A stretch of DNA of 64,000 bases from Thiomicrorhabdus chilensis DSM 12352 (lineage in GTDB: Bacteria; Pseudomonadota; Gammaproteobacteria; Thiomicrospirales; Thiomicrospiraceae): positions 624,072 through 688,071 of the forward strand of contig NZ_KI519609.1 in NCBI RefSeq assembly GCF_000483485.1, written 5' to 3'. The notes below the pieces were generated by a model. The model saw nothing but the letters and a program-made list of their open reading frames with translations. It searched no databases and was not told the origin of the DNA. A program made the translations under genes and the position numbers. Below are positions 4,182-41,543 of this stretch, in pieces (the stretch's first letter is position 1; each line of letters starts with the position of its first letter).

Positions 4182-4208
4182 GGGTCAGACATCCAGAGTT
4201 TTATTCTA

Positions 4209-6499: not shown

Positions 6500-6509
6500 G
6501 TAGAGAATA

Positions 6510-23805: not shown

Positions 23806-24944
23806 CAACTATGCCAACCGTTTTATTTGTTGTGAATTGTCCAAAGTTTTTTATATCACATCGCTTACCAATTGCAAAGTCTTTGATAGAAAAAGGCCAT
23901 GATGTTCATGTGGCTGCTTCTGGTGAAACTCTTCCTGTTTTTCAAGAAATGGGTATAAAATTTCATCACGTTAGCTTTTCACGCAAGGGTAAGAATCCTT
24001 TAAATGAATTGAGAGTTATTTGGCAGTTATTTCACTTGTTTAGGTCGTTGCACCCCGATCTTGTTCATTTGATTACAATTAAACCTTATTTATACGGAGG
24101 TGTTGCAGCTAAGTTGGCAAGAGTTCCAGGCGTGGTTTCTGCTGTTTCCGGGCTTGGGGTTGTTTTTATTTCATCAGGGATAAAAGCAAGGCTTTTAAGA
24201 CTGGTTTTGTATCCTCTCTATCGATTAGCTTTTAGTCGTAAAAATCAATCGGTTATTTTTCAAAACCAGGATGATGCAAACCTATTAGTTGAATGGGGTG
24301 TGGTTCAGCCTGTAAAGGTCAAATTGATTCGTGGTTCTGGTGTGAATTTAAGTGCTTATCCATTTACAACTGAGCCAGCGGGCAAAACAGTTGTAACATT
24401 TGCAGCACGTTTGTTAGTAGACAAGGGTATAAGAGAATTTATTGCTGCTTCTCGTATGATTCATGATAGAGGTATACAGGCTGAATTCTGGGTTGTGGGT
24501 GACGTGGATGAAGGTAATCCTGCTTCTGTTACACAATTAGAGATGGACTCATGGCGTATGTTGCCTAATGTTAAGGTATTGGGTTTCCAAAGTGATATTG
24601 CTAACTTATATCAAAAATCTAATATAGTGTGTTTGCCCTCTTATAGAGAAGGTTTGCCAAAGTCTTTAGTTGAGGCAGCGGCTTGTGGGCGTGCAGTTGT
24701 CACGACTGATGTTCCGGGTTGTCGCGATGCCATTGAGCCTGGCGTGACAGGTGTAATTGTGCCTGTTCGTGATGCGGAGGCATTAGCGGATGCGATTCAA
24801 GATTTAATTGAAAACCCCGTGAAACGAAAAACTATGGGAAAAGCTGGTCGCGAACTAGCTGAGAAAGAATTTGCGATTGAAAGAGTCGTGGATGCGCATT
24901 TACAGATATATGATGAACTCTTAACCAAAGAGGCAGAAGTTTGA
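23802..24944 (+). CDS. GT4 glycosyltransferase
   Basis: A 380-residue GT-B enzyme. VNCPKFFISHRLPIAKSLIEKGHDVHVAA is replaced here by its hallmark SHRLPIAKSL near residue 20, with HLITIKPYLYGGVAAKLAR, GSGVNLSAYPF and the donor motif SYREGLPKSLVEAAACGRAV. This subgroup (PglA/WbpX-like in wording) often adds the second sugar to an undecaprenyl-linked HexNAc. It sits directly before the reductase and initiating transferase, which fits such an early step. ATGA overlap with asnB. Confidence 0.87.
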   Translation: MTTMPTVLFVVNCPKFFISHRLPIAKSLIEKGHDVHVAASGETLPVFQEMGIKFHHVSFSRKGKNPLNELRVIWQLFHLFRSLHPDLVHLITIKPYLYGGVAAKLARVPGVVSAVSGLGVVFISSGIKARLLRLVLYPLYRLAFSRKNQSVIFQNQDDANLLVEWGVVQPVKVKLIRGSGVNLSAYPFTTEPAGKTVVTFAARLLVDKGIREFIAASRMIHDRGIQAEFWVVGDVDEGNPASVTQLEMDSWRMLPNVKVLGFQSDIANLYQKSNIVCLPSYREGLPKSLVEAAACGRAVVTTDVPGCRDAIEPGVTGVIVPVRDAEALADAIQDLIENPVKRKTMGKAGRELAEKEFAIERVVDAHLQIYDELLTKEAEV

Positions 24945-25942
24945 AAATTTTTTTGACGGGTGTAACTGGGTTTGTCGGTTCGGCTTTGTTGCAGCGTTTT
25001 GTTGCGGATGGTGTTGAGGTTAAGGCCTTGGTTCGCAATGAAGCAGCTGTGTTGTCGAACGGGGTTAAGAGGGTTGTTGGGGATTTGAGCGCCTTATCGT
25101 CTGCTGGAGATCCTTCGGCTTTGCCTCAGGATGACAGTAATGATTCGCACGGGATGACACTGCAAGATTGTGATGTGGTGGTGCATGCGGCGGCTCGTGC
25201 GCATATTATGCGCGATGAGGTGGCGGATCCTTTGGCGGAGTATCGCAAGGTGAATCGAGATGCGACTTTGGCTTTGGCTCGTTTGGCTGCTGAAGTTGGA
25301 GTTAAGCGGTTTGTGTTTGTCAGTTCGGTGAAGGTAAATGGTGAAGTGACCAGGCCTGGTCATTGTTTTTCACATACTGATGAACATGTACCTTCTGACC
25401 CCTACGGATTATCTAAGTATGAGGCGGAGCAGGGTTTATTGCAAATTGCACGCGAAACCAGCATGGTGGTAGTGATTATTCGTCCGCCGTTGGTCTATGG
25501 GCCGAATGTGAAAGGCAATTTTGCGTCGATGGTGAATTGGGTTAAAAAGGGTATTCCTTTACCGTTAGGTGCGGTTCATAATTTACGCTCTTTGGTGGCG
25601 CTGGATAATTTGGTGGACTTTATTGCTTTGTGTGCGGATCGTGAGCGTTCACCTAAAGCAGCGAATGAGGTGTTTTTGATTTCGGATGGAGAGGATGTGT
25701 CCACCAGCGATTTGTTACGAAAAGTGGCTAAAGCGTATGGAGTTAAGTCGCGCTTGTTGCCAGTTCCGGTCGGTTTAATGAAAGTTGCGGCTAAATTACT
25801 GGATAAAGGTGCGGTTGCAGATCGGTTGTTTGGTAATTTGCAGGTGGATAGTTCTAAAGCACGTGATTTGTTGGGTTGGCAACCCGTTATCACGATGGAT
25901 GAGCAGTTGGCTAAGATGGCGGCGTTGGATAAGTCAAAGTAG
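24941..25942 (+). CDS. NAD-dependent epimerase/reductase (WbpV-like) with repeat-encoded insert
   Basis: A 333-residue extended SDR. The nucleotide motif TGVTGFVGSALLQRF is at residues 6-20 and the catalytic Tyr/Lys lie in DPYGLSKYEAEQ. The wording VHAAARAHIM and RPPLVYGPNVKGNF is that of the WbpV/RmlD-like group that reduces the 4-keto-6-deoxy-HexNAc made by WbpM to UDP-QuiNAc or UDP-FucNAc. It starts at TTG 24941, overlapping the previous stop. Residues 56-66 (GDPSALPQDDS) come from an in-frame half of the dispersed repeat (25106-25136), placed in the loop after the second Rossmann strand. The genes around it repeat the wbpV, wbpL, wbpM order of Pseudomonas O-antigen loci. Confidence 0.84.
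   Translation: MKIFLTGVTGFVGSALLQRFVADGVEVKALVRNEAAVLSNGVKRVVGDLSALSSAGDPSALPQDDSNDSHGMTLQDCDVVVHAAARAHIMRDEVADPLAEYRKVNRDATLALARLAAEVGVKRFVFVSSVKVNGEVTRPGHCFSHTDEHVPSDPYGLSKYEAEQGLLQIARETSMVVVIIRPPLVYGPNVKGNFASMVNWVKKGIPLPLGAVHNLRSLVALDNLVDFIALCADRERSPKAANEVFLISDGEDVSTSDLLRKVAKAYGVKSRLLPVPVGLMKVAAKLLDKGAVADRLFGNLQVDSSKARDLLGWQPVITMDEQLAKMAALDKSK
25106..25136. repeat. palindromic repeat half-site inside the WbpV-like gene
   Basis: GGAGATCCTTCGG...CTCAGGATGACA, the inverted half of the family, read in frame as GDPSALPQDDS. A second short GGATGACA follows at about 25152-25159. Confidence 0.7.
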
Positions 25943-26896: not shown

Positions 26897-28423
26897 ATGA
26901 AAATTATTCCTCCCAGCGGTGCAGCACAGTTAGCGGGTTACAGTGAGCTGATTACGCGATATGCGTTGTCGGTTCCCTTGCCGGATCGTTTGTTTGCGAT
27001 TGGGGGGAAGCATCGTGTGTGTACGGCGGATGAGTGGACGTTGCTTACGCCACGCCATAAACCGGCTGATTCGCTTTTTGGGCATTTGGTGTTTGCCCTG
27101 AAGTATGAGGGAATTCACCTTTGGGTTTTAAAAGCGTTGTTTGATGCGCTTGTTGGCCGTGAGGTTGAAGCATTGGTTTTATTGGAGCCAACCGGGGCTT
27201 ATGCACGACGCATTTGGTTTTTGTATGAGTGGTTGACGGGTAACACTTTATCCCTGCCAGATACAGTGTCAGGCGGTTATGTGAATTTGGTCAATGACAA
27301 ACTTCAATATGCCGGGCCAACACGTAAATGTAAACGTCAGCGCGTTAATAACAATCTCCCGGGGAATCGCAGGTTTTGTCCCTTAATTCGTAAAACCGAT
27401 TTTTTGGAAAATTGGCGGCAAAGCGATTTATTGGATGAAACCCGGAAGACGGTTGGGCAATGTCACCCTGACGTATTGATGCGTGCAGCCAGTTTTTTGT
27501 TGTTGGCAGATTCCAAGGCGTCGTTTTCGATTGAGGGTGAGCAACCCCCTAAAAACCGTATTGCCCGTTGGGGTCAGGTAATTGGCATGGCTGGCCAACA
27601 GCCATTGTCTGTTGAGGAACTTGAGCGCTTACAGGGTTTGGTGCTTGCAGATCATCGGTTTGTAATACCGGGCTTGCGTGTTACAGGTGGCTTTGTAGGT
27701 TCGCATGACCGTGTGACGGGAATGCCGCTGCCAGAGCATATTTCAGCCAGACCGGAAGATTTGCCTGAATTGATGAGTGGTTTGCTGGAAACCTATACCC
27801 TCTTGAAGAGAGAAGGCTTTCCTCCGGTACTTTTGGCAGCCATGATTGCGTTTGGGTTTGTATTTATTCATCCGTTTGAAGATGGTAACGGGCGTTTGCA
27901 TCGGTATTTGATTCATCATGTGTTGACGGAAACCGGGTTTGTGCCCAAAGGCTGGGTGTTTCCGGTCTCTGCTGTGATTCTGAAGCGGATAGTGCAATAT
28001 CGTGAAGCGTTGCAAGCTTATTCCAAGCCACGTTTGGAGTTTGTTGACTGGTTTCCTACGCCTGACAATAATGTTTCTGTCATCAATGAAACCAAAGATC
28101 ACTATCGCTATTTCGATGCAACCCGGCAGGCGGAGTTTTTAGTGGAGTGTGTGGTTGAGACCATTCGTGATGTGCTCCCTGAGGAAGTGGCTTATTTGCA
28201 AAAGTATGATACGTTTGTGGAATATGTGAATGACCGCATAGACATGCCGCAAAGAACGGTGGATCTGTTGTTGCGTTTTTTACAACAAAATCAAGGCGTG
28301 CTGTCTAAGCGAGCGTTAAATAATGAGTTTGCACAACTGCGGCCTGATGAAGTAGACGATATTGAAGGAAAGTATCAAATGTTGTTTCAATATACCAGTG
28401 AGAAGGGTCAACACTCAATATGA
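26897..28423 (+). CDS. Fic-domain protein (AMP-transferase type) with N-terminal inhibitory motif
   Basis: A 508-residue protein with a complete Fic motif, HPFEDGNGR, starting at residue 325; the catalytic His and the Asp/Glu, Gly, Asn and Arg positions are all present. A class II inhibitory motif S-x3-E-G is visible at residues 209-214 (SFSIEG), as in Fic proteins held off by their own N-terminal helix. The first 200 residues are not a domain I recognise; the C-terminal part (from about residue 400) looks like a winged-helix tail. Fic enzymes usually transfer AMP to proteins. It lies between the initiating transferase and the WbpM-like gene and overlaps the latter by four bases (ATGA), so it is translationally coupled to polysaccharide synthesis genes. 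Confidence 0.88.
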   Translation: MKIIPPSGAAQLAGYSELITRYALSVPLPDRLFAIGGKHRVCTADEWTLLTPRHKPADSLFGHLVFALKYEGIHLWVLKALFDALVGREVEALVLLEPTGAYARRIWFLYEWLTGNTLSLPDTVSGGYVNLVNDKLQYAGPTRKCKRQRVNNNLPGNRRFCPLIRKTDFLENWRQSDLLDETRKTVGQCHPDVLMRAASFLLLADSKASFSIEGEQPPKNRIARWGQVIGMAGQQPLSVEELERLQGLVLADHRFVIPGLRVTGGFVGSHDRVTGMPLPEHISARPEDLPELMSGLLETYTLLKREGFPPVLLAAMIAFGFVFIHPFEDGNGRLHRYLIHHVLTETGFVPKGWVFPVSAVILKRIVQYREALQAYSKPRLEFVDWFPTPDNNVSVINETKDHYRYFDATRQAEFLVECVVETIRDVLPEEVAYLQKYDTFVEYVNDRIDMPQRTVDLLLRFLQQNQGVLSKRALNNEFAQLRPDEVDDIEGKYQMLFQYTSEKGQHSI

Positions 28424-30333
28424 AAATCACACATTCACTATTGGGTTTACCCCGTTTATATAAACGCATGATCTCCATCTCTGTGGATGTGCTTGGTTTG
28501 TGCTTTGTGGCGATATTGGCGATTTGGTTGCGCTTTGGGGAATCGGTGTTTCCGGTCACCGATTATGTGCCGGCTATTTTTCTGTTGCCGTTGATTGCGT
28601 TGCCTGTCTTTATCACCCAAGGGCTGTACCGTGCGGTGATTCGTTACATTGGCCATAAGTTTGCCATAACCGTTTTGTCGTCCGTCTCATTGGTGTGTGT
28701 AATCTGGGCGGCGGCCATTTTTATGCTGGACTTGGCGTATCCTCGTTCTGCCATCGTCATTACTTGGTTGTTGGCGCTGTTTTATATTTCCGCAACGCGG
28801 ATTTTGGCGCGTTGGTTATTGTCAGAAGGCATGATTAAAAAAGACTTGCTGGCCCGAAAGCGAGTGGTGATTTTTGGTGCGGGGTCTTCCGGCAAGCAGC
28901 TGTTAAGTGCCATCAGTAAGATTCCAGATTTGAAAGTCATTGGCTTTATTGATGATGACAAGAGTTTGCATAAACATGATATCGCTTCGGTGAGGGTCTA
29001 TGCGCGTGATGACTTACAGGGTCTGATTGAGGACAACGCTGTCAGTGAGGTGTTTTTGGCGATTCCGTCCATGTCGGCTTCACGTCGAAAAGCCGTGCTG
29101 GAATGGTTGGAGCCTTATCCGGTGAAAGTGTCGACTTTACCGGCGATGGATGAGATTGTGGCTGGAAAGGTGTCGTTTTCCGATATCCGCGAGGTGGATA
29201 TTGAGGATTTGTTAGGACGTGATCAGGTACCGCCCCAGCCGGAGCTTTTGTCTAAATGCATAACCAATCAGGTGGTGATGATTAGCGGTGCAGGCGGGTC
29301 GATCGGTTCGGAGCTGTGTCGTAAGGTGTTGCGACAATCTCCGAAAATTTTGGTGCTGTATGAGATGAGTGAGTTTGCCTTATACAGTATTGAACGAGAG
29401 CTAAGGCATTCAAATGAACTGGGTGAAACGCAGCTGGTTGGTGTGTTGGGCAGCGTGTTGGATGCGGCGAAGTTGCGCCGTATTATGGAGTGTTATGGCG
29501 TGAACACCATTTACCATGCCGCCGCCTATAAGCATGTGCCGATTGTGGAGCACAATATTCAGGAAGGCTTGATCAATAATGCGTTTGGAACTCATATCGC
29601 GGCCAAAACGGCGGGGCAATGTGGTGTGCAAAACTTTGTGTTGATTTCAACCGACAAGGCGGTGCGCCCCACTAATGTGATGGGTGCCAGTAAACGGCTG
29701 GCGGAAATGGCGCTGCAGGCGTTGCAGTTGGAATACCCGGATACGCGGTTTGTGATGGTGCGTTTTGGTAATGTGTTGGGCTCTTCCGGGTCGGTGATTC
29801 CGTTGTTTAGAAAGCAGATTGCCGACGGCGGGCCGGTGACGGTCACGCATAAGGAGATCACGCGGTATTTCATGACGATTCCCGAGGCGGCTTCTCTGGT
29901 AGTGCAGGCCGGTTCCATGGGCGTGGGCGGTGACGTTTTTGTTTTGGATATGGGCGAACCGGTCAAGATTGCCGATTTGGCCAAAAAAGTCATCAAGCTT
30001 TCTGGATTGGAGCTGATGGACGAGTCAGGCAATGGCGATATTGAAATTCAATATACTGGCTTGCGTCCCGGAGAAAAACTCTATGAAGAGTTGTTGATTG
30101 GGGAGAATGTCGACGGTACGGATCACCCCAGAATCATGAAAGCCCATGAAGAGTATTTGGCGTACGAATCCCTAATGGAAGAGTTCATTCAGCTTGAAGC
30201 TTCGTTGAATGACTATGACTATGATGCGGTGTTACAACAGCTGGCTAGAATAGTATCGGGCTTTGAGCATACCTCTGGGGTGGTGGATTATTTACAGTGT
30301 GGATTGTTAGAGGGAATCAGCAACCGTGAATAA
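28420..30333 (+). CDS. WbpM-like UDP-GlcNAc 4,6-dehydratase (membrane)
   Basis: A 637-residue polysaccharide-biosynthesis dehydratase. Four N-terminal membrane helices (to about residue 130) are followed by a first Rossmann-like domain (FGAGSSGKQLL near residue 155) and the catalytic SDR domain (ISGAGGSIGSELCRKVL near residue 288). ISTDKAVRPTNVMGASKR near residue 410 has the Met in place of the usual Tyr, as known for the WbpM/PglF/CapD family. It turns UDP-GlcNAc into a 4-keto-6-deoxy sugar, the substrate for the WbpV-like reductase. The start overlaps the fic stop. Confidence 0.93.
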   Translation: MKITHSLLGLPRLYKRMISISVDVLGLCFVAILAIWLRFGESVFPVTDYVPAIFLLPLIALPVFITQGLYRAVIRYIGHKFAITVLSSVSLVCVIWAAAIFMLDLAYPRSAIVITWLLALFYISATRILARWLLSEGMIKKDLLARKRVVIFGAGSSGKQLLSAISKIPDLKVIGFIDDDKSLHKHDIASVRVYARDDLQGLIEDNAVSEVFLAIPSMSASRRKAVLEWLEPYPVKVSTLPAMDEIVAGKVSFSDIREVDIEDLLGRDQVPPQPELLSKCITNQVVMISGAGGSIGSELCRKVLRQSPKILVLYEMSEFALYSIERELRHSNELGETQLVGVLGSVLDAAKLRRIMECYGVNTIYHAAAYKHVPIVEHNIQEGLINNAFGTHIAAKTAGQCGVQNFVLISTDKAVRPTNVMGASKRLAEMALQALQLEYPDTRFVMVRFGNVLGSSGSVIPLFRKQIADGGPVTVTHKEITRYFMTIPEAASLVVQAGSMGVGGDVFVLDMGEPVKIADLAKKVIKLSGLELMDESGNGDIEIQYTGLRPGEKLYEELLIGENVDGTDHPRIMKAHEEYLAYESLMEEFIQLEASLNDYDYDAVLQQLARIVSGFEHTSGVVDYLQCGLLEGISNRE

Positions 30334-30342
30334 GGAGGTTAA

Positions 30343-30615
30343 ATGAAAAAGGCATTGCAAGATTGGATAAAGGCGAATCCTGAAAAGGGCGTACGAAGAG
30401 GCAAAGCAAGCCAATATGAGCCTTATCAGCAGGAGTTGAAAGTTCTGTTGGAACAAGGTTACTCTACTCAGAAAATAGCCAAATATCTTGAGGAAGTGGA
30501 AAAGGTACCTTTTAAAAAGAAAGAGGGTCAGAACGTGGTGACCTCATTAGGGACTTATTTAAGAGAATTGGCCAAACAACATAACATCAAACGCTCAGGG
30601 CGCAGACGTTCATAA
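30343..30615 (+). CDS. small basic protein with possible helix-turn-helix
   Basis: A 90-residue, lysine/arginine-rich protein that I do not recognise. ELKVLLEQGYSTQKIAKYLEE (residues 28-48) reads like a helix-turn-helix of the kind found in small plasmid or integrase-associated proteins, and the C-terminus KRSGRRRS is strongly basic. The ribosome site is nearly perfect (TAAGGAGG, six bases from ATG 30343), so it is very likely translated. It closes the first polysaccharide cluster, nine bases after the WbpM-like gene. A DNA- or RNA-binding regulator is possible but not shown. Confidence 0.6.
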   Translation: MKKALQDWIKANPEKGVRRGKASQYEPYQQELKVLLEQGYSTQKIAKYLEEVEKVPFKKKEGQNVVTSLGTYLRELAKQHNIKRSGRRRS

Positions 30616-30686
30616 AATCAATGGCCTGAAATCGTGTTTCAGCCAAGGAGAAATTTCTTTCTGCCCATTGGTAAGTTCGAAGGAAC

Positions 30687-30713
30687 AGATACTTCTATAA
30701 GCTCAGCATGGCA
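30687..30713. repeat. degenerate palindromic repeat half-site
   Basis: AGATACTTCTATAAGCTCAG then CATGGCA, compared with AGATGCTTCGACAAGCTCAG at 52218. Lies in the 230-base spacer before the ulosonic-acid-like cassette. Confidence 0.5.
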
Positions 30714-30787
30714 CTGAGTGGAGGTGCAGAATATGCGGCGAGGTACTTTGCTTATGGTTCAGGCAGTCCGTTCAATTTCTGTTTTGC

Positions 30788-30816
30788 TTGCATGCATATA
30801 AAGGTCTGCATAAAAT
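30788..30816 (+). promoter_or_regulatory. sigma70-type promoter of the aldolase cassette
   Basis: TTGCAT, a 17-base spacer and TAAAAT, ending 29 bases before the GTG start of the aldolase gene. Spacing and hexamers are good. It suggests that the five-gene cassette is transcribed separately from the first polysaccharide cluster. Confidence 0.6.
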
Positions 30817-30845
30817 GGCCCTTTTGGCGTATTTAGGTTTGAAAT

Positions 30846-32486
30846 GTGACGAGTAGCTCAAGACAGCAAGTTAAGATTCTGGATTGTACTTTGCGGGACG
30901 GGGGATATTACACCTCTTGGGACTTTGACTCCCAACTCGTTCAAGACTATTTACAGGCAATGGCGGCTTTGAACGTCGGGTATGTGGAGGTTGGGTTTCG
31001 TTCTTTACAAAACTCAGGCTTTAAAGGAGCCTTCGCATATAGTACTGATGCCTTTTTACAGAGCTTGACCATTCCTAGTGAGTTAAATCACAAAATCGGC
31101 GTGATGGTTAACGGCTATGAACTGAGTGATCCCCCTACTCAACGACATGTATTGGAAAGGCTTTTCTTGCCTAAATCAGAGTCTCCCGTTTCATTGGTTC
31201 GAATCGCCTGCCATATTCATGAATTGGAGAGCTGTTTGCCTGCTACTCACTGGCTGCATGAACAGGGTTATCGGGTCGGGGTGAATATTATGCAGGTTTC
31301 CGACTGTTCGCCAGAAAAAATCTCCGGTTTGGCCAAGCAGGTGGCGGATTATCCGGTTGATGTGCTGTATTTTGCGGACAGTATGGGATCGCTTCAGGCT
31401 GAGCAGACACAAAAGATCGTTGACGCTTTGCGCGAAAACTGGGCTGGAGAACTGGGTATCCACACACACGATAATATGTGTATGGCGCTAGGCAATACGT
31501 TGAGCGCGGTAGAAAGTGGTGTGACCTGGGTCGATTGCACCGTGACTGGAATGGGGCGTGGTCCAGGTAATTTGCAAACCGAATATGCAGTGCTGGCTTT
31601 AGAAAAACATCTGGATTGCGAAGCCTCAAATCCGACGAAGTTATTGGGTTTGATTCGAGAACACTTTTCTTCTCTTAAAAACCAATATGGCTGGGGAACC
31701 AATCCCTATTATTATCTAGCCGGTGAGTATGGAATTCACCCCTCTTATGTGCAGGAAATGTTAGCGGACAGGCGTTATAGTGAAGAGGATATTTTAGCCG
31801 TACTTGAGCACTTGAAGATTGAAGGTGGGAAAAAGTTCAATTTGGGAACACTTGAGGCGGCTAGGCATTTTTATTCTGGGCTTCCTCGCGGCCAGTGGAA
31901 TCCTAAATCGGAGATCGAAAACAGAGAGGTGTTGATTTTAGGGACGGGCCCAGGCGTTTCAAAGTACCGTCAAGCCCTTGAAGCTTTTGTAAGTAAACAC
32001 CGACCTTTTGTCATCGCTTTGAATACGCAGCAGAATATTGATGAGAATCTCATCGATGTACGAGCGGCGTGTCATCCTGTGCGGCTTTTAGCGGATTGTC
32101 AGGAGCACCGCAAGTTGTCACAGCCTTTGGTGACGCCCGCATCGATGTTGCCCGAGGATGTGAAGCAAGAACTGAAAGGCAAAGAGTTGCTGGATTTTGG
32201 AATTTCGGTTGATACGGATGTGTTCGAGTTTAATGATTATTTTTGCATTTTGCCCAGTTCATTGGTGTTGGCTTATGCGTTAGCAATTGCCACCAGTGGC
32301 CATGCCAGTCGGATTTTATTGGCAGGTTTTGATGGTTATGACGCCGATGATCCGCGAAGAAAGGAAATTGATCGACTCTTTCAGCTTTATGCAATGGCAC
32401 CGAACTCCCTTGAGGTGTTGGCCATTACCCCCACCCGATATGAGATCCCCGTCCAATCCGTTTATGCCTATGAGATAAAAATATGA
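30846..32486 (+). CDS. DRE-TIM aldolase fused to a C-terminal Rossmann-like domain
   Basis: A 546-residue fusion. Residues 10-300 form an HMGL/DmpG-like DRE-TIM barrel: ILDCTLRDGGYYTSWDF has the catalytic Arg-Asp, and GIHTHDNMCMALGNTL the metal-binding His-x-His. The best-known relative is 4-hydroxy-2-oxovalerate aldolase, which joins or splits pyruvate and an aldehyde. From about residue 355 a second domain starts EVLILGTGPGVSKY and ends with ASRILLAGFDGYDADD. It resembles DUF115/CstI-like Rossmann proteins in pattern, but I cannot name it. The gene starts at GTG 30846, with AGG eight bases upstream, and overlaps the CMP-ketoacid synthetase gene (ATGA). A role making a 2-keto sugar acid is the contextual inference. 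Confidence 0.75.
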   Translation: MTSSSRQQVKILDCTLRDGGYYTSWDFDSQLVQDYLQAMAALNVGYVEVGFRSLQNSGFKGAFAYSTDAFLQSLTIPSELNHKIGVMVNGYELSDPPTQRHVLERLFLPKSESPVSLVRIACHIHELESCLPATHWLHEQGYRVGVNIMQVSDCSPEKISGLAKQVADYPVDVLYFADSMGSLQAEQTQKIVDALRENWAGELGIHTHDNMCMALGNTLSAVESGVTWVDCTVTGMGRGPGNLQTEYAVLALEKHLDCEASNPTKLLGLIREHFSSLKNQYGWGTNPYYYLAGEYGIHPSYVQEMLADRRYSEEDILAVLEHLKIEGGKKFNLGTLEAARHFYSGLPRGQWNPKSEIENREVLILGTGPGVSKYRQALEAFVSKHRPFVIALNTQQNIDENLIDVRAACHPVRLLADCQEHRKLSQPLVTPASMLPEDVKQELKGKELLDFGISVDTDVFEFNDYFCILPSSLVLAYALAIATSGHASRILLAGFDGYDADDPRRKEIDRLFQLYAMAPNSLEVLAITPTRYEIPVQSVYAYEIKI

Positions 32487-33229
32487 GAACAATTGTAGTG
32501 ATTCCGGCTCGATATGAGTCTTCCCGTTTTCCGGGAAAGCCTCTTGTGCATTTGTTAGGCAAACCTATGATTCTCTGGGTGGCTGAGCTGAGTGCAAAAG
32601 CAGTAGGCAAAGAGAATGTGTATGTCGCCACGGATGATGAGAGAATCTCAAATGTGGTGATAGAGGCAGGGTTTCAGTCGGTTATGACCAGTCAGAATGC
32701 GTTGACTGGCACGGATCGCTTGTCAGAAGTGGCGCAACAAATTGAAGCCGATATATACATTAATGTACAGGGGGATGAGCCTCTGGTTGATCCCGCAGAT
32801 ATTGTCAGGGTGATCGAGGAAAAGAAGCGCTACCCTGAAGAGGTTATCAATGGCTATAGCCCATTGTCTGAAAATGAAGACCCCATGTCTGTGAACATTC
32901 CAAAAGTGGTGTTTACTGAGAATCAACACTTGGTTTATATGTCCAGAATGGCTTTGCCGGGTTATAAAGACCAAAAAAATGCACCCCAACAATATTATAA
33001 ACAGGTGTGCATATATGGTTTCAGTCGAGAAGAATTGATTCGTTATGGCGCGTTTGGCAGAAAAAGCGTTTTGGAGCAATCAGAGGACATTGAAATTATC
33101 CGTTTTCTGGAGTGGAGTCAACCAATTAGATTGGTTCGGACAAAGCCGGGAAGCTTAGCGGTTGATATTCCTGAGGACGTTTCCAAGGTGGAAGAGGCTT
33201 TAAGACGGGTTATTATTGATGAGAGTTGA
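32483..33229 (+). CDS. CMP-ketoacid (Kdo-type) cytidylyltransferase, KdsB-like
   Basis: A 248-residue KdsB-family enzyme that would activate a 2-keto-3-deoxy sugar acid as its CMP derivative. The N-terminal nucleotide motif IPARYESSRFPGKPL, the TDDERI metal site and INVQGDEPLVDP are intact. Length is normal for KdsB (about 245-255). It could be the cell's Kdo activator, but its place between an aldolase fusion and a HAD phosphatase suggests a special substrate. It overlaps both neighbours by 4-11 bases. Confidence 0.85.
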   Translation: MRTIVVIPARYESSRFPGKPLVHLLGKPMILWVAELSAKAVGKENVYVATDDERISNVVIEAGFQSVMTSQNALTGTDRLSEVAQQIEADIYINVQGDEPLVDPADIVRVIEEKKRYPEEVINGYSPLSENEDPMSVNIPKVVFTENQHLVYMSRMALPGYKDQKNAPQQYYKQVCIYGFSREELIRYGAFGRKSVLEQSEDIEIIRFLEWSQPIRLVRTKPGSLAVDIPEDVSKVEEALRRVIIDES

Positions 33230-33875
33230 TGTTAAAAACTATCACAGTTTGGTGTTTGATTGCGATGGTGTCGTGTTAGATTCCAACCGCATTAAAACTC
33301 AAGCTTTTTACGATGCGGCTTTGATTTATGGCCAGGATGCCGCCCAGACACTGAAAGACTATCATGTTAAAAACGGTGGGATTTCACGTTATAAGAAGTT
33401 TGAATACTTTCTATCGGAAATTCTTGGTGGCCAGGTCAACCCAGATGATTTGAACCAATTGTTGCAGCGATTTGCGTCCGAGGTTAAAAAAGGGCTGCTG
33501 GGGAGTAAAGTCGCGTCCCGTTTGGACGAACTTCGTGACTATACTCAGCATGCGAATTGGTTGATTGTGTCAGGCGGTGACCAGACTGAACTCAGAGAAG
33601 CCTTTGTGCAGAAGGGCTTGGATAGTTTTTTTGATGGGGGCATTTTTGGTAGTCCTGATACCAAGGAACTGATTTTAGAGCGGGAGCTTGGGCAATCCAA
33701 TATTGAAAAACCGGCTTTGTTTTTGGGTGACAGTAAATATGATTATGAGGCTGCCAGGCAGGCTGGTTTGGATTTTGTCTTCATTTCGGGTTGGACTGAA
33801 GTCGTTGACTGGGAAGCATGGTGTCAATCCAATCAAATACCGCATTATTCGTCACTTCAGACGCTGATAAGTTGA
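33219..33875 (+). CDS. HAD-superfamily phosphatase
   Basis: About 218 residues. Motif I is LVFDCDGVVLDSN (Asp nucleophile and second Asp), a helical cap follows, motif II is LIVSGGDQTEL, and the last motif FLGDSKYDYEAARQAG has the Mg-binding acids. Start ATG 33219 lies three bases after a TTG alternative and inside the cytidylyltransferase gene. In sialic and Kdo pathways a HAD phosphatase removes the phosphate from the newly formed ketoacid phosphate; that is the likely role here. Substrate unknown. Confidence 0.83.
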   Translation: MRVDVKNYHSLVFDCDGVVLDSNRIKTQAFYDAALIYGQDAAQTLKDYHVKNGGISRYKKFEYFLSEILGGQVNPDDLNQLLQRFASEVKKGLLGSKVASRLDELRDYTQHANWLIVSGGDQTELREAFVQKGLDSFFDGGIFGSPDTKELILERELGQSNIEKPALFLGDSKYDYEAARQAGLDFVFISGWTEVVDWEAWCQSNQIPHYSSLQTLIS

Positions 33876-33882
33876 TTCTTTT

Positions 33883-34977
33883 ATGAATTCTGAGATTGAT
33901 TTATATATTGTGAGCACGCCAAGACAATGGTGGATTGCGTGCGCTTTGGCGCGCCATTTCCAGCGTCCCGCGAGAATGCTGATTGATGATTGTTTTAATG
34001 GTGCCGAGGGGTATGCTCGTCTCACATCCAGTTGGAGTCAATGCCCATTTGACTCGGTTGAATTATTGAACGGTAAAAATACGTGGCTTGGTTTAAAAGG
34101 CGGAGCCAGGGCTTGGGAAAAGTTTTTGGAACCTGGAAAGCGCAAACATCAGATACGACATTTTCTATTGAATAATGTTGTTAAAACGCTTTTCACCTCC
34201 AGTGTGCGTGATTGGATGACGCAACTGGCTGTACATTGTCAGCCAAATATTCAGGTGTCTTATTTAGACGATGGAATACGCACCTACCAACAAGATATTC
34301 CCAAAAAACAGTCGTGCTTAAAAACAGTGCAAAAGAAATTGGCTCATGGCTTTTGGTATGGTTCTCCTCAGCCGTATTCTGAAATAGACTATTTAAGCCA
34401 TGCTTATGTCTTTCATGCTCAGATGGTGAATTCGGATATTCGGGCGCTTCAAGTGGTTGAATTACAAAATAGCTGGTTTGTGGAACCTCAAATGCTTGAG
34501 TTGGCGCAGGCCTTACTCAAACAGCATGAGTTTGAAAGTTTTGTGACGGATCGTGACAATCAAAAAAATCTTATTTTGGCTTTTACCAAACTCAGTATTC
34601 TTGAACGTGACTGTGAGGATTTTGATTTAGACAGGTTCAAAAAACGCTTGTTGAAAGTGGTCAATAAAGCGGCTTCTGATGGACGGGTGATATGGGTGAA
34701 ATATCACCCTCGGGAAGTCGCTGATGATATTTATGGCATAGCTAAAGAGGTTCCTCATGTCCATTTTATACCTGCCAGCATACCCTTTGATGTTTTGATT
34801 TCATTGCTGAATAAAGGGGATTCAATGATTGGTGAAATTTCGACGGTATTATTTGATGTCGCTTTAAGAAGACCTGATGTTAAGGTTTCTTCAGTTGATT
34901 GTTTACTTGGGAATGCCAAGTTATCGGCCCCCTTTCAGAAAGCGGGTGTGAATATGATTGAGTCTTTTTATGACTGA
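33883..34977 (+). CDS. polysialyltransferase/GT52-like protein
   Basis: A 364-residue protein with the look of bacterial sialyl- and polysialyltransferases (PF07388/GT52 style). It opens IDLYIVSTPRQWWIACAL, has a KYHPRE motif near residue 270 and the SMIGEISTVLFDVAL segment near residue 312, where these families keep HP and S-S/T motifs for CMP binding. It is seven bases downstream of the HAD gene. With a CMP-ketoacid synthetase in the same cassette, transfer of the CMP-activated ketoacid to the polymer or lipid A-core is the natural reading. Confidence in family is moderate. Confidence 0.62.
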   Translation: MNSEIDLYIVSTPRQWWIACALARHFQRPARMLIDDCFNGAEGYARLTSSWSQCPFDSVELLNGKNTWLGLKGGARAWEKFLEPGKRKHQIRHFLLNNVVKTLFTSSVRDWMTQLAVHCQPNIQVSYLDDGIRTYQQDIPKKQSCLKTVQKKLAHGFWYGSPQPYSEIDYLSHAYVFHAQMVNSDIRALQVVELQNSWFVEPQMLELAQALLKQHEFESFVTDRDNQKNLILAFTKLSILERDCEDFDLDRFKKRLLKVVNKAASDGRVIWVKYHPREVADDIYGIAKEVPHVHFIPASIPFDVLISLLNKGDSMIGEISTVLFDVALRRPDVKVSSVDCLLGNAKLSAPFQKAGVNMIESFYD

Positions 34978-34995
34978 GCGCGCGAATTAATTATT

Positions 34996-36297
34996 ATGTT
35001 GATTCCGTTAAATGTTCTGCAGATTATTCTGTTTTTTTCCTTATTCATTACCTTTTTGGGCTACATCCTTAGGTGGGTGTTTCCCGTTAATATCGAAATT
35101 TGGCTTGGTGTTCTTTTTTTATTTACACTTTATCTGATTGCAAAACGCGGTTACCAATCAATTTCAGTTCCGGTTCGCTTGTGGTTGGGTTTGATGGCCT
35201 TATTTTGGTCGTTTAATGTTTTATCGGCGTTATTTCATGATAGTGATATTGGTTATAGAACGCTGAGTTTGATCAGCACATACAGCACGATTTTGGGGTT
35301 TGCATCGGTCGCGGTGGCAATAAGTGTATTAAAGCCAAAAATTGATTTCTTCTGGTACCTGATTGCGGCGGGTGCGATTGGCGTTTTATTAGCATTTGGA
35401 TTGGAGCTCAAAAATGTTGGCTGGGGTGCGCTTGAACAGGGGCATCGATTTGGCGGATATACCTCTCAACAGATCAGTTTTGGGGTGTTCGCGAATACTT
35501 TTTTTATTATTTTATTGGGTTCTTTTGTTTGGGCTTTTAATAAAGGTCATCTTTTCTTTTTGGTTTGGTTACTTTTGATTATTGCTGATTTTTGCATGAT
35601 TATTGTTTCACAAAGCAGAAATGCCTGGCTTGGTTTGCCTGAAGCGGTGATAGTTTGGTCTGTTTATTATGGGTTTAAGCTGTATCAATCCGATGTGTCT
35701 TTCATTAAAAAGCTTATTGTTGCAATTTCTCCTATTGTGGTTGTGATGCTTTTGTTTTCGATGCAGCCACTCAAAAAAATTGTTGAACAAAGAGTGGGAT
35801 TGGCTGTTACGGGTGTTGAAAATTATGTTTCCAGGGAAAGTTTTTATGGGAGTGTCGGTGCACGTTTAATGATGTATGAAGCCGGCTTTTCAGGTATTAA
35901 AGAGCATTTTTGGTTTGGAATGGGGACAGAGAATTTTCCATCTTTTGTTAAGCAAGAAACCAAACAGATAGCCCTTGAGAAGTTTGAAAAAAAATTTGGG
36001 GGGTATCAGTTCAGTTCAATTCATAATCAATTTTTGATGAGCTGGTTGATTCATGGTGTCTTTGCATTCATTATTGTATTGAGCTTTTTTGTTTTCATGT
36101 TCGTGTATTTTTATAGAGGGTTAAAGCGGTCCCCAGAAGATGATAAGCCGATATGGGTAGCAGGCTTGGTTTACAGTTTAGCGACCTTTATTTCCTTCCT
36201 GCCTGAATCAATGCTCCATAGCCTTTATAACTTCAGCCATTTCTTTATGGTTTCATCTATTCTGATCGCCTACACTTCAACGCTCAATAGGTCTTAA
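34996..36297 (+). CDS. O-antigen ligase/Wzy-like membrane protein
   Basis: A 433-residue polytopic protein with about eleven hydrophobic segments. The Wzy_C/WaaL hallmark is visible: FCMIIVSQSRNAWLGLPEAVIVW (here SQSRNAWLG) followed by a long periplasmic loop with GARLMMYEAGFSGIKEHFWFGMGTENF and IHNQFLMSW. WaaL joins polymer to lipid A-core; Wzy polymerises repeat units; they cannot be separated by sequence reading. It ends the cassette. The 73 bases after it run into the insertion element without a clear terminator. Confidence 0.82.
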   Translation: MLIPLNVLQIILFFSLFITFLGYILRWVFPVNIEIWLGVLFLFTLYLIAKRGYQSISVPVRLWLGLMALFWSFNVLSALFHDSDIGYRTLSLISTYSTILGFASVAVAISVLKPKIDFFWYLIAAGAIGVLLAFGLELKNVGWGALEQGHRFGGYTSQQISFGVFANTFFIILLGSFVWAFNKGHLFFLVWLLLIIADFCMIIVSQSRNAWLGLPEAVIVWSVYYGFKLYQSDVSFIKKLIVAISPIVVVMLLFSMQPLKKIVEQRVGLAVTGVENYVSRESFYGSVGARLMMYEAGFSGIKEHFWFGMGTENFPSFVKQETKQIALEKFEKKFGGYQFSSIHNQFLMSWLIHGVFAFIIVLSFFVFMFVYFYRGLKRSPEDDKPIWVAGLVYSLATFISFLPESMLHSLYNFSHFFMVSSILIAYTSTLNRS

Positions 36298-36466
36298 CTT
36301 TAAACCTTTTGTAAATCTAACAATTAATACGCTATTCTAAGTCATCACTGGAGTGGTTCTTTATCACTCAGTACGTAAAACCCGTCCTTCAGGTCGGGGA
36401 TATAAGTACAACAGGCGTAGCCTGTTTTAGATTGTGTCATTGATTGAATGTTGTTACAATAATCAA

Positions 36467-37699
36467 ATGAAACAAACTATACGAAAAGCCTTTAAATTCC
36501 GACTCAATCCCAATTCTGACCAAGTGCAGAAGATGATTGAGTTTGCCGGTGCCAACCGGTTTGTGTGGAATAAGGCTTTAGCGATGAATTTGTTTCGGCT
36601 TGAACATAAACAGCCGATACTTTGGTATAGCGAATTCGCATTTTGGCTAAAGCTTTGGAAGTCCTCAGAAGATTATGGATTTCTAAAAACCGTTCACTCT
36701 CAGCCGTTACAGCAAGCATTAAAACAGCTTGAGCGTGGATTTAAAGATGGTTTTGATAAAAAACAGCCTTTAAAGCGAATTCCAACCTTTAAGCGTAAAG
36801 GTCAAAAAGACTCTTTCACCTATCCGCAAGGTTTTAAGGTGGATTCTGATAAGAATAAAGTATTTTTACCAAAAATTGGCTGGGTCAAATACCGCAATTC
36901 TCGACAAGTGATTGGTGATTTGAAAAACTGCACGGTATCAAGGCGCGGAGCGCATTGGTACGTGTCAATCCAGACCGAATATGAAGCGGATATAAAGTAT
37001 CATGAATCCAGCAGTATGATTGGTATGGATATGGGGATTACCCGCTTTGCAACGCTATCGGATGGTTCGTATATCGAACCGTTAAACAGTTTTCGTAAGT
37101 TATCAAAGAAGTTGGCTTTTGAACAGCGTAAGCTGTCTAAGAAAGTTAAATTCTCTGCTAACTGGAAAAAGCAGAAACAAATCATTACACGACTGCATGA
37201 GCGTATTGCCAATGCGCGTTTAGACTTCTTGCACAAAACCTCAACCAACATCAGCAAAAGCCACGCAATGATCGTGGTTGAAGATTTAAAAGTAAGAAAC
37301 ATGTCTAAAAGTGCCAAGGGCAGTATTGAAGTTCATGGGAAAAATGTAAAAGCGAAATCCGGTCTTAACAAATCCATCCTTGACCAAGGCTGGGGAATGT
37401 TTGTGCAAATGCTTGAGTACAAGCAACAGTGGTCAGGAGGAGATGTCTTGAGGGTAAACCCTCAATACACCTCTCAAACCTGTCCAAACTGCAAACATGT
37501 TAGTCGTGACAACCGTAAAAGCCAACGTGCTTTTGCATGTACAGAGTGTGGATTTAAAGCCAATGCCGACTTGGTGGGTGCTTTGAATGTACTTGAGCGA
37601 GGACATCGCTTGTTAGCCTGTGGAGTTGAAACATTGGTTTCGACAATGAAGCAGGAACCAGTTGGTAGTAGTGATACACGCCAACTCTTAACAGCCTAG
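36467..37699 (+). CDS. tnpB: TnpB-type RNA-guided nuclease of an IS200/IS605 element
   Basis: A 410-residue OrfB/TnpB. The RuvC residues are intact: D188 (GMDMG), E272 (VVEDLKV) and D368 (NADLVGALNV). The zinc finger has Cys339, Cys342, Cys358 and Cys361, and the N-terminus KAFKFRLNPNSDQ is typical. ATG 36467 is chosen over GTG 36434, because family members begin at KQTIRKAFKFR. Such proteins are programmable RNA-guided DNA nucleases that use an RNA from the element's right end. The 3' end of this gene and the hairpins at 37690-37732 have the expected place for it. Confidence 0.93.
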   Translation: MKQTIRKAFKFRLNPNSDQVQKMIEFAGANRFVWNKALAMNLFRLEHKQPILWYSEFAFWLKLWKSSEDYGFLKTVHSQPLQQALKQLERGFKDGFDKKQPLKRIPTFKRKGQKDSFTYPQGFKVDSDKNKVFLPKIGWVKYRNSRQVIGDLKNCTVSRRGAHWYVSIQTEYEADIKYHESSSMIGMDMGITRFATLSDGSYIEPLNSFRKLSKKLAFEQRKLSKKVKFSANWKKQKQIITRLHERIANARLDFLHKTSTNISKSHAMIVVEDLKVRNMSKSAKGSIEVHGKNVKAKSGLNKSILDQGWGMFVQMLEYKQQWSGGDVLRVNPQYTSQTCPNCKHVSRDNRKSQRAFACTECGFKANADLVGALNVLERGHRLLACGVETLVSTMKQEPVGSSDTRQLLTA

Positions 37700-37742
37700 T
37701 GCTGTTAGGAATCCCCGTCCTTCAGGGCGGGGAGGATGTCAA
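37690..37742 (+). ncRNA. candidate right-end guide (omega) RNA scaffold of the TnpB element
   Basis: Two consecutive hairpins, AACAGC-ctagt-GCTGTT (37690-37706, containing the tnpB stop) and CCCCGTCC-TTCA-GGGCGGGG (37713-37732), end at the element border. In IS200/IS605 systems the RNA guiding TnpB comes from this position and its guide is the flanking DNA, here from about 37743. Position and structure only; expression not shown. Confidence 0.45.
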
Positions 37743-38311
37743 TGGTCTCCAGTACATTTGGCCTACGTCCCATTGAGTGTGCTCAAATTAAGACGGTCAA
37801 GGTTAAAGATGATCTTATTGGCATGAAGATTAAAAATGCAAAGCATACGGATGGTCGCTCTTTTGGTAAATATCGCACGATTCGGTTTCAGATAGTCGAT
37901 GAAAAATCGGAGGAATTTGAAGCCCTTGGGGCGAGTTATAGATTGACCGCTTTGTTCAGTAATAAATCAAAAGTTGAGGCGGAACGATGGCTGAAGGGTG
38001 CGCGCAATTTTCTCAACCAGTTATATGCTAAAAATCGTGATTTGAAGAAACTCGCAAGGAAAAATCGGATTACCTTGTACAGCGGCAGGCATCAGTTCTC
38101 AGCCAATGCAAAACAAGCGGGTGTACCAGCGATTGAAATTGCAGCCATGATGGGGCATGGTTCGGATGAAACCCATGTGAAGAGTTATGGTAAAAGACGG
38201 GTTGGCAGCGGAAGGTTTACGATTCAAGCCGATCCGTTGGATGTGGAGCGAGTAGAGGAGAGGATGCAGGTTAAGCAAGATAATCAGTTTTCCCAACAAT
38301 TAGGTCGCTGA
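37743..38311 (+). pseudogene. tyrosine recombinase (phage-integrase type), 5' truncated by the IS element
   Basis: The catalytic domain of a tyrosine recombinase is readable from box I (FGLRPIECAQI, catalytic Arg) through SGRHQFSANAKQAG (box II, Arg-His) and MMGHGSDETHVKSYGK (His and the Tyr nucleophile). The N-terminal core-binding domain is missing. The frame simply runs backward into the right end of the IS element at 37742, and no matching 5' part is found before its left end. The gene was therefore cut by insertion plus deletion and is probably dead, though a translation start at ATG 37736 inside the IS end is possible. It marks the island as formerly mobile. Confidence 0.75.
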
Positions 38312-40074: not shown

Positions 40075-40710
40075 ATGGATGCGTTGTTATCCCCTTATGC
40101 AGGCCTGGTTGTCCAGTATTCGACGCTCTTGTCTGTGCTGTCCGATTACCAAGCGCCCAATTTTAAAATTCATCGGTGGCTGGATGAGGGGCAGTTAATT
40201 TCTCTTAAACGCGGACTTTATGCTGTGCCTGGGTCATCTGCGGGTGTGGCGCTTTCTTTGCCCTTGGTGGCGAATCATTTATATGGCCCTTCCTATGTGT
40301 CCATGGAGTTCATGTTGTCGCACTATGGGATGATTCCTGAGCGGGTGATGCAGGTGACCAGTGTGACCACGCGGCGTGGTAAGCATTTTGAGAATGGCTT
40401 GGGGCGATTTTCTTATCAGCGTGTCCCTCTGGTCTATTATGCCTTGGGTGTGGATTATGTAAAAGCGAATGAGCGCGTGGGTTATATGGTGGCGAGTCGT
40501 GAAAAGGCCTTGTGCGACTGGTTAGCGTTGACGCCGAATTTGAAAATTTATTCCACCAAGGGGTTGCGGGTGTTGTTGTTGGACGACATGCGTATGGATG
40601 AAGCTATTTTGAGTGACTTGGATGTGGATAAAGTGAAGCGTTTTTCGCAAGCCGGGTTTAAAACCCAACGCTTGCAGTGGCTTGGGCGTTTGTTGGCGGA
40701 GGGGGTGTGA
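40075..40710 (+). CDS. AbiEi-type antitoxin/regulator
   Basis: A 211-residue AbiEi-like protein. An N-terminal winged helix (IHRWLDEGQLISLKRGLYAV, near residues 33-52) is followed by the YGPSYVSMEFMLSHYGMIPE and VASREKALCDWLAL segments typical of the antitoxin domain. AbiEi neutralises AbiEii and represses the operon. The stop overlaps the toxin start as TGATG. The palindrome over the promoter fits autoregulation. Confidence 0.86.
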   Translation: MDALLSPYAGLVVQYSTLLSVLSDYQAPNFKIHRWLDEGQLISLKRGLYAVPGSSAGVALSLPLVANHLYGPSYVSMEFMLSHYGMIPERVMQVTSVTTRRGKHFENGLGRFSYQRVPLVYYALGVDYVKANERVGYMVASREKALCDWLALTPNLKIYSTKGLRVLLLDDMRMDEAILSDLDVDKVKRFSQAGFKTQRLQWLGRLLAEGV

Positions 40711-41543
40711 TGCTAGAGCAAATGTTAGGCCGATATACGACTCTAACCGAAACACAAAAGCAGCACGCCTTGCGTGAGGTGATGCAGGAGGTGGCGCTAG
40801 CCGGTTTGTATCGCGGTGGCTTTTTTGAAAAAGCCGCTTTTTATGGTGGAACCTGTTTGCGGATTTTTTACGATTTGCCGCGTTATTCCGAGGATTTGGA
40901 TTTTTCGCTGCTGAAACCTCAGGCCGATTTTTCTTTGCAGCCGTATTTTGATGCGGTGGTGGCGGAGTTTGCCGCTTTGGGGCTTGATGTTTCGATTTCG
41001 CAAAAAAAGAAAACAGCTTCGACAGCGATTGAGTCTGCATTTTTAAAAAATGATACACAGATTGTGGTGCTGGATTTTTCCGGTGTGCAGGTGAAAATTA
41101 AATTTGAGGTGGATACACGTCCCCCTCTGGGCTTTAACACCGAAGAGCGTCTGCTGATTGAGCCTTTTTCTTTTTATGTGAAGTGCTTTAGCTTGCCGGA
41201 TTTGTATGCGGGTAAGATGCATGCTTTGTTATTCCGCCAGTGGAAAAATCGGATCAAAGGGCGTGATTGGTTTGATTTTGAGTGGTATGTTCGCCGGAGT
41301 GCGGCCTTGAATTTGGCCCACTTTAATGAGCGGGCGATACAAAGTGGTGATTTAGTTGAGCCGGTTGATGAGCAGGGCTTTTTGCGGTTGCTGAAACAAA
41401 GGATTGGTGCAGTTGATTTTGAAAATGCCAAGTTAGATGCAGAGCGTTTTGTGAGCAATCCGCGTGTTCTGGATATTTGGTCACGTGATTATTTTATGGA
41501 GTTGGCACAGCGTGTAATCCCCCCGAAAAATAACCGGGATTAA
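40710..41543 (+). CDS. AbiEii-type nucleotidyltransferase toxin
   Basis: A 277-residue protein with the AbiEii signature YGGTCLRIFYDLPRYSEDLDFSL: the GG-S/T loop and the acidic pair of DNA-polymerase-beta-type nucleotidyltransferases. LYAGKMHALLFRQWKNRIKGRDWFDFEWY is the second conserved block. Members of this type IV toxin family act in abortive infection by modifying tRNA or nucleotides. ATG 40710 shares a base with the antitoxin stop, so production is coupled; the frame's earlier GTG at 40677 is not needed. Appears intact. Confidence 0.88.
   Translation: MLEQMLGRYTTLTETQKQHALREVMQEVALAGLYRGGFFEKAAFYGGTCLRIFYDLPRYSEDLDFSLLKPQADFSLQPYFDAVVAEFAALGLDVSISQKKKTASTAIESAFLKNDTQIVVLDFSGVQVKIKFEVDTRPPLGFNTEERLLIEPFSFYVKCFSLPDLYAGKMHALLFRQWKNRIKGRDWFDFEWYVRRSAALNLAHFNERAIQSGDLVEPVDEQGFLRLLKQRIGAVDFENAKLDAERFVSNPRVLDIWSRDYFMELAQRVIPPKNNRD

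Follow-up and report, generated by a model that had tools for sequence, protein, structure and literature searches.

A candidate aldolase-based module for a CMP-activated ulosonic acid other than Kdo in Thiomicrorhabdus chilensis

Bacterial routes to ulosonic acids activated with cytidine monophosphate (CMP) are, to our knowledge, all built on synthases that consume phosphoenolpyruvate (PEP). Here, we analysed a 64-kb window, meaning the whole stretch C1:624072-688071 of the Thiomicrorhabdus chilensis DSM 12352 genome (G000), which contains a cassette of five genes. The first gene, here called ALD, encodes a DRE-TIM aldolase fused to a second domain, and it is followed by genes for a KdsB-like cytidylyltransferase, a HAD phosphatase and two further proteins of surface polysaccharide families. 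An initial annotation had proposed that the five genes form one aldolase-based pathway to a CMP-ulosonate, with its own promoter, in which the aldolase replaces a missing PEP-dependent synthase. The core of that idea stands after three objections to it failed (that the aldolase is a catabolic DmpG, that the KdsB-like gene is the only activator of 3-deoxy-manno-octulosonic acid (Kdo) in the cell, and that the neighbourhood is not conserved), but the five-gene unit and the missing synthase had to be corrected. We propose that ALD, KdsB and HAD probably constitute a transferable three-gene module for making and CMP-activating a 3-deoxy-2-ulosonic acid other than Kdo.

Layout and conservation of the cassette

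The cassette consists of five open reading frames (ORFs), given here with their lengths in amino acids (aa) and with the second domain of ALD on its own line.

30846-32486, + strand: ALD, 546 aa; DRE-TIM (HMGL-like) aldolase (approximately aa 8-345) fused to a sialyltransferase-fold domain; PF00682
31878-32483, + strand: ALD C-terminal domain, aa 345-546; Maf / GT42 / MptE / SteA fold
32483-33229, + strand: KdsB-like putative CMP-ulosonate synthetase of an ALD-associated subfamily, 248 aa; PF02348
33216-33875, + strand: HAD-IA family phosphatase, 219 aa; PF13419/PF00702, TIGR01549
33883-34977, + strand: polysialyltransferase-like candidate glycosyltransferase, non-core, 364 aa; PF07388
34996-36297, + strand: Wzy_C / O-antigen ligase-like membrane protein, non-core, 433 aa; PF04932

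The ORF coordinates and Pfam matches bear out the families, gene order and tight packing that were first described: the ORFs overlap by 4 and 14 bp and are then separated by 7 and 18 bp, and the HAD ORF starts with TTG at 33216, with an ATG just after it at 33219. The claim of a separate promoter did not hold, as a scan covering promoters of the sigma-70 type only gave no site in 30615-30846, and the seven sigma-70-like sites in 30300-36500 compare with a shuffle mean of 12.1.

Eight of 62 genomes of the order, that of T. chilensis included, carry the full-length ALD fusion (60-66% identity for the others); all other ALD matches in this set are short and LeuA-like or partial. The HAD protein (E 1e-15) is found in exactly the same eight genomes, at one locus in each, so that neither gene is ever seen without the other; one of these loci (L048, genome G059) has two HAD copies (3668-4324 and 6081-6761), both about 62% identical to that of the window. 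KdsB of the window type is present in five of the 62 genomes (its own and four at 70-74% identity), all of them ALD-positive; in the remaining three ALD genomes, a different type of PF02348 protein is encoded beside ALD or, in G053, one gene away. The genes for the polysialyltransferase-like and ligase-like proteins are variable, with relatives in only two of the seven other loci (G058 and G025), at 24-26% identity for the PF07388 protein and 38-41% for the Wzy_C protein, which there lies directly upstream of ALD; the G058 locus also encodes a GT29-like protein. Hence, what survives of the proposed five-gene unit is a conserved ALD-KdsB-HAD core.

The three-gene association is also seen in a wider set comprising the best 80 of at least 574 ALD relatives (592 candidate stretches), of which 73 have at least 2.5 kb of sequence downstream. 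The profiles used to find partners were seeded with ten HAD, nine KdsB and five NeuA-like sequences of the window and related loci and may therefore overlook distant HADs. Within 6 kb of ALD and on the same strand, a cytidylyltransferase match occurs in 67 of the 73 loci, a HAD match in 57 and both in 54, with the cytidylyltransferase at most 120 bp from ALD in at least 50. In a position control, 58 of 75 loci have a cytidylyltransferase match (at least 60 bits) in the first 1.5 kb downstream, versus 0-6 of 64-79 for each of the other 1.5-kb bins; for HAD matches the counts are 45 of 75 versus 0-4. Even three Bacteroidota loci in which ALD is only 27-28% identical still have ALD, cytidylyltransferase and HAD in order. 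Three Leisingera plasmids encode ALD at approximately 57% identity, and the two that were examined have the order ALD, KdsB, HAD within glycan loci. Carriers in the wider set are found among Proteobacteria (SAR11 included), Bacillus, Prochlorococcus and Bacteroidota. These counts, in the order and beyond it, dispose of the objection that no conserved neighbourhood exists.

Among 249 sampled genomes of the phylum, ALD (E 1e-60) and this KdsB type (E 1e-55) were each found only in T. chilensis itself, which indicates a rare and scattered module and speaks for rarity, not linkage; E. coli genomes gave no match when searched at the DNA level, as a distant comparison, with the module of Brenneria (L100). 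In a quick tree built from 82 ALD sequences (open at 26 of 79 inner branches, with five long-branch rows and 34 rows with an unusual letter make-up), two Bacillota rows stand beside a Methylobacillus row within proteobacterial rows, and a Halieaceae row groups with Rhodobacterales. The partner is KdsB-like in 50 rows and PseF/NeuA-like in 19, with none within 900 bp in 13, and the two types change into each other eight times, fewer than under label shuffles. This tree suggests that the module passes from lineage to lineage and that several exchanges of its activating enzyme have taken place. The direct neighbours (121 of 129 picked proteins scanned) belong to 102 families, and the commonest of the 25 listed are nucleotide-sugar dehydratases/epimerases (9), group 1 glycosyltransferases (8) and Polysacc_synt (8), followed by radical SAM (7), MptE-like (PF01973; 7) and PF07388 (3), none exceeding 9. 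By these family assignments, the setting of ALD is that of surface glycan loci, in which no glycosyltransferase family is fixed as its direct neighbour.

Enzyme families of the core genes

The N-terminal part of ALD has a PF00682 (HMGL-like) match of 94.6 bits, over the cut-off and the sole Pfam match at E 0.01. DRE-TIM metallolyases are marked by a metal-binding Asp and an HxH motif, and ALD has this hallmark in its HMGL-like domain with D18, H206 and H208, which are invariant across 40 aligned ALD rows together with D13, R17 and a GMGRGxGN loop. An AlphaFold2 model of full-length ALD has a mean predicted local distance difference test score (pLDDT) of 93.8. By Foldseek, the closest solved relative of the N-terminal domain is 3dxi (E 2.6e-22, 32% identity), a putative aldolase from Bacteroides vulgatus (BVU_2661) that likewise has Tyr at the position of DmpG His21; unlike full ALD, it is titled as an N-terminal domain only, as 'putative', and has no function given among the matches listed. 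The 4-hydroxy-2-oxovalerate aldolases DmpG and BphI share the fold (1nvm_C, E 2.8e-16), and R17, D18 and both His of HxH align, but these enzymes have His21 where ALD has Tyr, a C-terminal domain of their own and an aldehyde dehydrogenase partner. ALD lies under every NCBIfam cut-off listed, and by family score aldolases are closer to it than Claisen-type enzymes are.

The KdsB-like protein belongs to the CMP-ketoacid synthetases (PF02348 CTP_transf_3, 139.1 bits). Aligned with the Aquifex enzyme 2y6p, the aspartates of its QGDEP and AVD motifs and the lysine of its PGKP motif match D95 and D219, which bind Mg, and Lys19 (excerpts of PMC3149649). The sugar motif is changed: the substrate-binding motif of PaKdsB, RHIGVYAYR (excerpts of PMC7717453), has YKQVCIYGF as its counterpart, and KQVCIY / EDIEII stand against (K/R)HxGxY / LEQLR in the other two KdsB proteins of the genome. 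In a survey of 57 KdsB-like proteins from ALD loci (at least 150 bits in a purpose-built profile, window included), Gln stands at the His of (K/R)HxGxY in 51. The six others are copies 2.6-3.4 kb from ALD (L075, L094, L096 and L101), a copy beside KdsA in the Bacillus locus L119, and the L115 gene, which adjoins ALD yet keeps the His. This altered motif suggests a substrate other than Kdo, and a RQVCIY/EDIEIL signature separates the ALD-type enzymes from the other KdsBs of this genome. The window protein scores 142.7 against the kdsB equivalog TIGR00466, under the cut-off of 155.2, versus 222.0 (C1:178093) and 300.6 (C1:1128992) for the other two.

The phosphatase matches HAD_2/Hydrolase (PF13419/PF00702) at approximately 40 bits and TIGR01549 at 30.5 bits (cut-off 23.3); no KdsC-family match was found in NCBIfam and no match to solved structures at E 0.001. 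As for the two non-core proteins, the PF07388 match is weak, at 26.0 bits over a gathering cut-off of 23.3 and with no solved structure matched at E 1, and the Wzy_C match (PF04932) has 64.8 bits.

The C-terminal domain of ALD has no Pfam match and gives a mean pLDDT of 96.6 when modelled alone. Foldseek links it to SteA, human ST8SiaIII and an archaeal HPPK (MptE-type) at E 7e-5 to 6.4e-4. When the best 1000 Foldseek chains were ranked with VIA-align, the Maf glycosyltransferase 5mu5 came top (Z 13.8, 182 aligned, root-mean-square deviation (rmsd) 3.2), SteA (Z 12.8) and HPPK (Z 12.2) ranked next, and CstII 1ro8 scored Z 11.1 (164 aligned, rmsd 3.9), with other sialyltransferases after it and 5bo9 borderline at Z 8.0. 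The domain thus has the Maf / GT42 / GT29 fold over 164-182 of its 202 residues, a fold that also covers SteA and MptE. Unlike Maf flagellin glycosyltransferases and GT42 sialyltransferases, it is only about 200 aa long, fused to an aldolase and without a significant sequence match (profile search: CstII E 0.37, MptE E 0.01). A mapping of the CstII donor-pocket residues onto the domain was dropped, as a 99-position sub-profile missed CstII at E 5. The predicted nucleotide-binding fold, common to CMP-sialic acid transferases, may bind CMP or a CMP-sugar. The domain may be a transferase, a sensor or a pyrophosphokinase; function does not follow from a shared fold.

Genomic context and alternative explanations

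The cassette lies next to the following genes.

26897-28423: Fic-domain protein, upstream of the cassette, inside the polysaccharide region
28420-30333: Polysacc_synt_2 (FlaA1/WbpM-like) protein, upstream of the cassette
36434-37699: IS605 TnpB-type gene, directly downstream of the cassette
37736-38311: ORF with a sub-threshold phage integrase match, downstream of the cassette

Further upstream, at 20729-25942, the best NCBIfam matches are XrtA/PEP-CTERM-type glycosyltransferases and an XrtA-type amidotransferase, all under cut-off. At 40075-41543, two overlapping ORFs resemble an AbiEi/AbiEii pair, an impression from the sequence only.

The absence of a PEP-dependent NeuB or KdsA, as first claimed, holds for the 64-kb window, outside which all PF03102 and PF00793 matches lie, but not for the genome. 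Its sole PF03102 match is NeuB (C1:928470, passing TIGR03569), which lies with LegB (over cut-off) among flagellar-looking genes in a locus that looks legionaminic-type, and of its two PF00793 matches (C1:1073987 and C1:1322749) the latter is KdsA, passing TIGR01362. Since both synthases exist, the aldolase would add a pathway instead of standing in for a missing one. At L011:5390-15871, LegB and NeuB score over and a PseF-like cytidylyltransferase under cut-off, and an 814 aa protein lies beside flagellin-like genes. The KdsB of the window is one of three in the genome (C1:178093, 39% identical; C1:1128992, 33% identical) and thus not the only candidate Kdo activator of the cell. The C1:178093 gene adjoins a LegC-like aminotransferase, an iron-type alcohol dehydrogenase and a WaaA-like gene (L010:8261-12690, C1 approximately 176.8-181.2 kb), a layout that we take to be an 8-amino-Kdo (KdnA/KdnB) locus, unconfirmed by family cut-offs: NCBIfam names neither the LegC-like nor the alcohol dehydrogenase gene over cut-off, and WaaA was assigned by eye. 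C1:1128992 follows an LpxK-like gene, also recognised by eye.

One alternative to an ALD-based synthesis is that ALD acts on a different step, building or trimming a precursor, and that the CMP-linked acid comes from a NeuB-type synthase or an HpcH/HpaI aldolase, depending on the species. HpcH/HpaI-type pyruvate aldolase genes do occur in ALD loci, as listed here (Pfam checked for L047 only).

L047:6384-7148: HpcH/HpaI-type pyruvate aldolase gene
L050:1458-2189: HpcH/HpaI-type pyruvate aldolase gene
L054:9636-10373: HpcH/HpaI-type pyruvate aldolase gene
L066:9615-10364: HpcH/HpaI-type pyruvate aldolase gene

Each of them is accompanied by a PseF/NeuA-like cytidylyltransferase, and those of L047, L054 and L066 stand between ALD and the cytidylyltransferase; weaker matches exist in L075, L094 and L096. 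Such genes inside or beside the ALD module possibly serve a second aldolase-based acid. This alternative also draws support from the NeuB matches in some ALD loci and from the switching of the cytidylyltransferase type while ALD stays. However, a phmmer search of 90 ALD loci of differing length with the copies of this genome found NeuB in only 11 and KdsA in one (L119), HpcH/HpaI matches occur in only five of 80 wider loci (a survey of C-C bond-forming enzymes confined to these three), and ALD and HAD keep strictly together in the order. We consider a different step for ALD unlikely.

Less probable again is a role of the module as an additional supplier of CMP-Kdo, or of a close Kdo relative, for a polysaccharide, with ALD as an accessory. 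The window KdsB passes the KdsB subfamily models NF009905 (275.0 vs 255) and NF003952 (236.8 vs 193), and its best solved relative is 1gq9, which we take to be the E. coli capsule CMP-Kdo synthetase KpsU. However, the genome already has KdsA and two other KdsB genes, one of them beside an LpxK-like gene, the sugar motif is altered in most ALD-associated enzymes, and the single KdsA among the 90 loci (KdsD was outside that search) comes from a locus in which both gene sets are adjacent.

L119:3099-6224: Bacillus sp. ISL-41 KdsB-like, KdsA, KdsD-family and KdsC-family genes, upstream of ALD-KdsB-HAD with two other ORFs between

Family scores there are 397.8 for KdsA (TIGR01362, cut-off 314), 319.6 for a KpsF/KdsD-family isomerase (TIGR00393, cut-off 203.7) and 165.7 for a KdsC-family phosphatase (TIGR01670, cut-off 106.95), with the narrower equivalogs unmatched (KdsD 334.5 vs 505; KdsC 163.1 vs 208). 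Given these scores and a KdsB-like gene on the KdsA side that has neither His nor Gln in the sugar motif, the product of the KdsA-side set is not certain. Still, two adjacent sets, each with a phosphatase and a cytidylyltransferase, argue for two products, which are likely in this strain. Kdo supply as the main role of the module is weakened by the three KdsB genes, the KdsA elsewhere and the changed sugar motif.

Two readings of ALD itself fare worse. PF00682 covers both aldol and Claisen reaction types, so ALD might be a Claisen-type DRE-TIM enzyme using acetyl-CoA, with a product that is not a 3-deoxy-ulosonic acid; the NifV and LeuA scores of 82.1 and 69.4 bits are non-negligible, but ALD scores highest in the aldolase branch (120.3 and 103.9 bits) and Pfam finds no LeuA C-terminal domain in ALD, which makes this very improbable. 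That ALD is catabolic (DmpG-like, or a retro-aldolase of a sugar acid) and placed here by chance is scarcely credible, even though its closest characterised enzymes are 4-hydroxy-2-oxovalerate aldolases: it scores 103.9 bits against the DmpG equivalog TIGR03217, far under the cut-off of 286, a Pfam scan at E 0.01 finds no DmpG C-terminal domain, no DmpG-partner-type aldehyde dehydrogenase is among ten genes scanned around it, and it adjoins a CMP-sugar synthetase across phyla.

Several observations weigh against our proposal that ALD, KdsB and HAD together make one activated acid. All 40 aligned ALD rows have Tyr at the position of DmpG His21, presumably the base in catalysis by DmpG/BphI enzymes, so the catalytic base and perhaps the stereochemistry would differ and the aldol reaction itself is uncertain. 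A partner is missing in 19 of the 73 wider loci. Eight of these are SAR11-type: L090, L091 and L124 have neither partner, L093 has only a far match on the ALD strand, and KdsB is present without a HAD match in L095, L102, L117 and L118. Three Streptomyces loci show no more than a weak HAD match, and the other eight fall outside both groups. Among the 67 cytidylyltransferase matches, some are weak or lie several kb away, and these may serve another sugar. The partner type changes even between close ALD relatives (L046 vs L047 and L048), and the eight switches are compatible with a single product that has two activators, but also with products that differ. Nor is the cut-off of the kdsB equivalog decisive alone, because in L119 the KdsA-side copy misses it too (134.0, versus 145.2 for the ALD-side copy). 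Lastly, given the HpcH/HpaI-type genes in ALD loci, ALD may not make the activated acid.

The proposed pathway and its meaning

From the families, folds and gene order, we infer a donor, acceptor, chemistry, order of steps and product as follows. The aldolase domain of ALD would add pyruvate, as an enolate on a divalent metal, to a phosphorylated aldehyde from central metabolism, giving a 4-hydroxy-2-oxo (3-deoxy-ulosonate) phosphate. The HAD enzyme would take off the phosphate, and the KdsB-like enzyme (PseF/NeuA-like in other species) would convert the acid to CMP-ulosonate. The PF07388 protein or another locus-specific glycosyltransferase would transfer the sugar to a surface polysaccharide handled by Wzx/Wzy-type machinery, and the C-terminal domain of ALD, acting as a transferase or sensor, may bind the CMP-sugar or CMP itself. 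No sugar-modifying enzyme is seen as a fixed partner of the triad, which makes a common metabolite the probable aldehyde acceptor; the data give no preference for the octulosonic or nonulosonic chain length first suggested over that of a shorter acid. As in the PEP-dependent routes (KdsA-KdsC-KdsB, and the NeuB-based sialic, legionaminic and pseudaminic routes), the enzyme that turns a 2-keto acid sugar into its CMP form would come from PF02348, and a phosphatase of the HAD superfamily is encoded nearby. Unlike them, the module has a DRE-TIM aldolase as the candidate C-C bond-forming enzyme in place of KdsA or NeuB, a HAD-IA phosphatase outside the KdsC family and a KdsB with a changed sugar motif. 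A bolder and rather doubtful extension is that ALD combines a synthase with a domain that reads the end product, binding CMP-ulosonate and either passing it on to a conserved acceptor or inhibiting the aldolase; the module would then represent a new class of ulosonic acid biosynthesis, spread horizontally through several phyla and yielding at least one unreported CMP-sugar.

A pyruvate aldolase could make sugars of this kind that are reportedly present in known polymers, namely 3-deoxy-L-glycero-pentulosonic acid in the Klebsiella K38 capsule and 3-deoxy-D-threo-hexulosonic acid in Vibrio lipopolysaccharide. The E. coli K3 sugar is a 4-deoxy-hexulosonic acid according to a reference title in PMC10433991. 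No genes tied to the Klebsiella or Vibrio sugars were found among the open-access matches listed or in the available sections of PMC4616057, and the connection remains a lead. Likewise, no pathway that combines an aldolase with a CMP-ulosonate was found among the matches listed in the open-access literature, so publication elsewhere is possible, nor does one appear in the available sections of PMC13171606, PMC12409901 and PMC7371886.

In two Leisingera plasmids, genes of the module are annotated as 'aldolase catalytic domain-containing protein' and '3-deoxy-manno-octulosonate cytidylyltransferase'. If the proposed route is real, such names would be the reason why acidic surface sugars of one class have escaped notice across Proteobacteria, Bacillus, Prochlorococcus and Bacteroidota.

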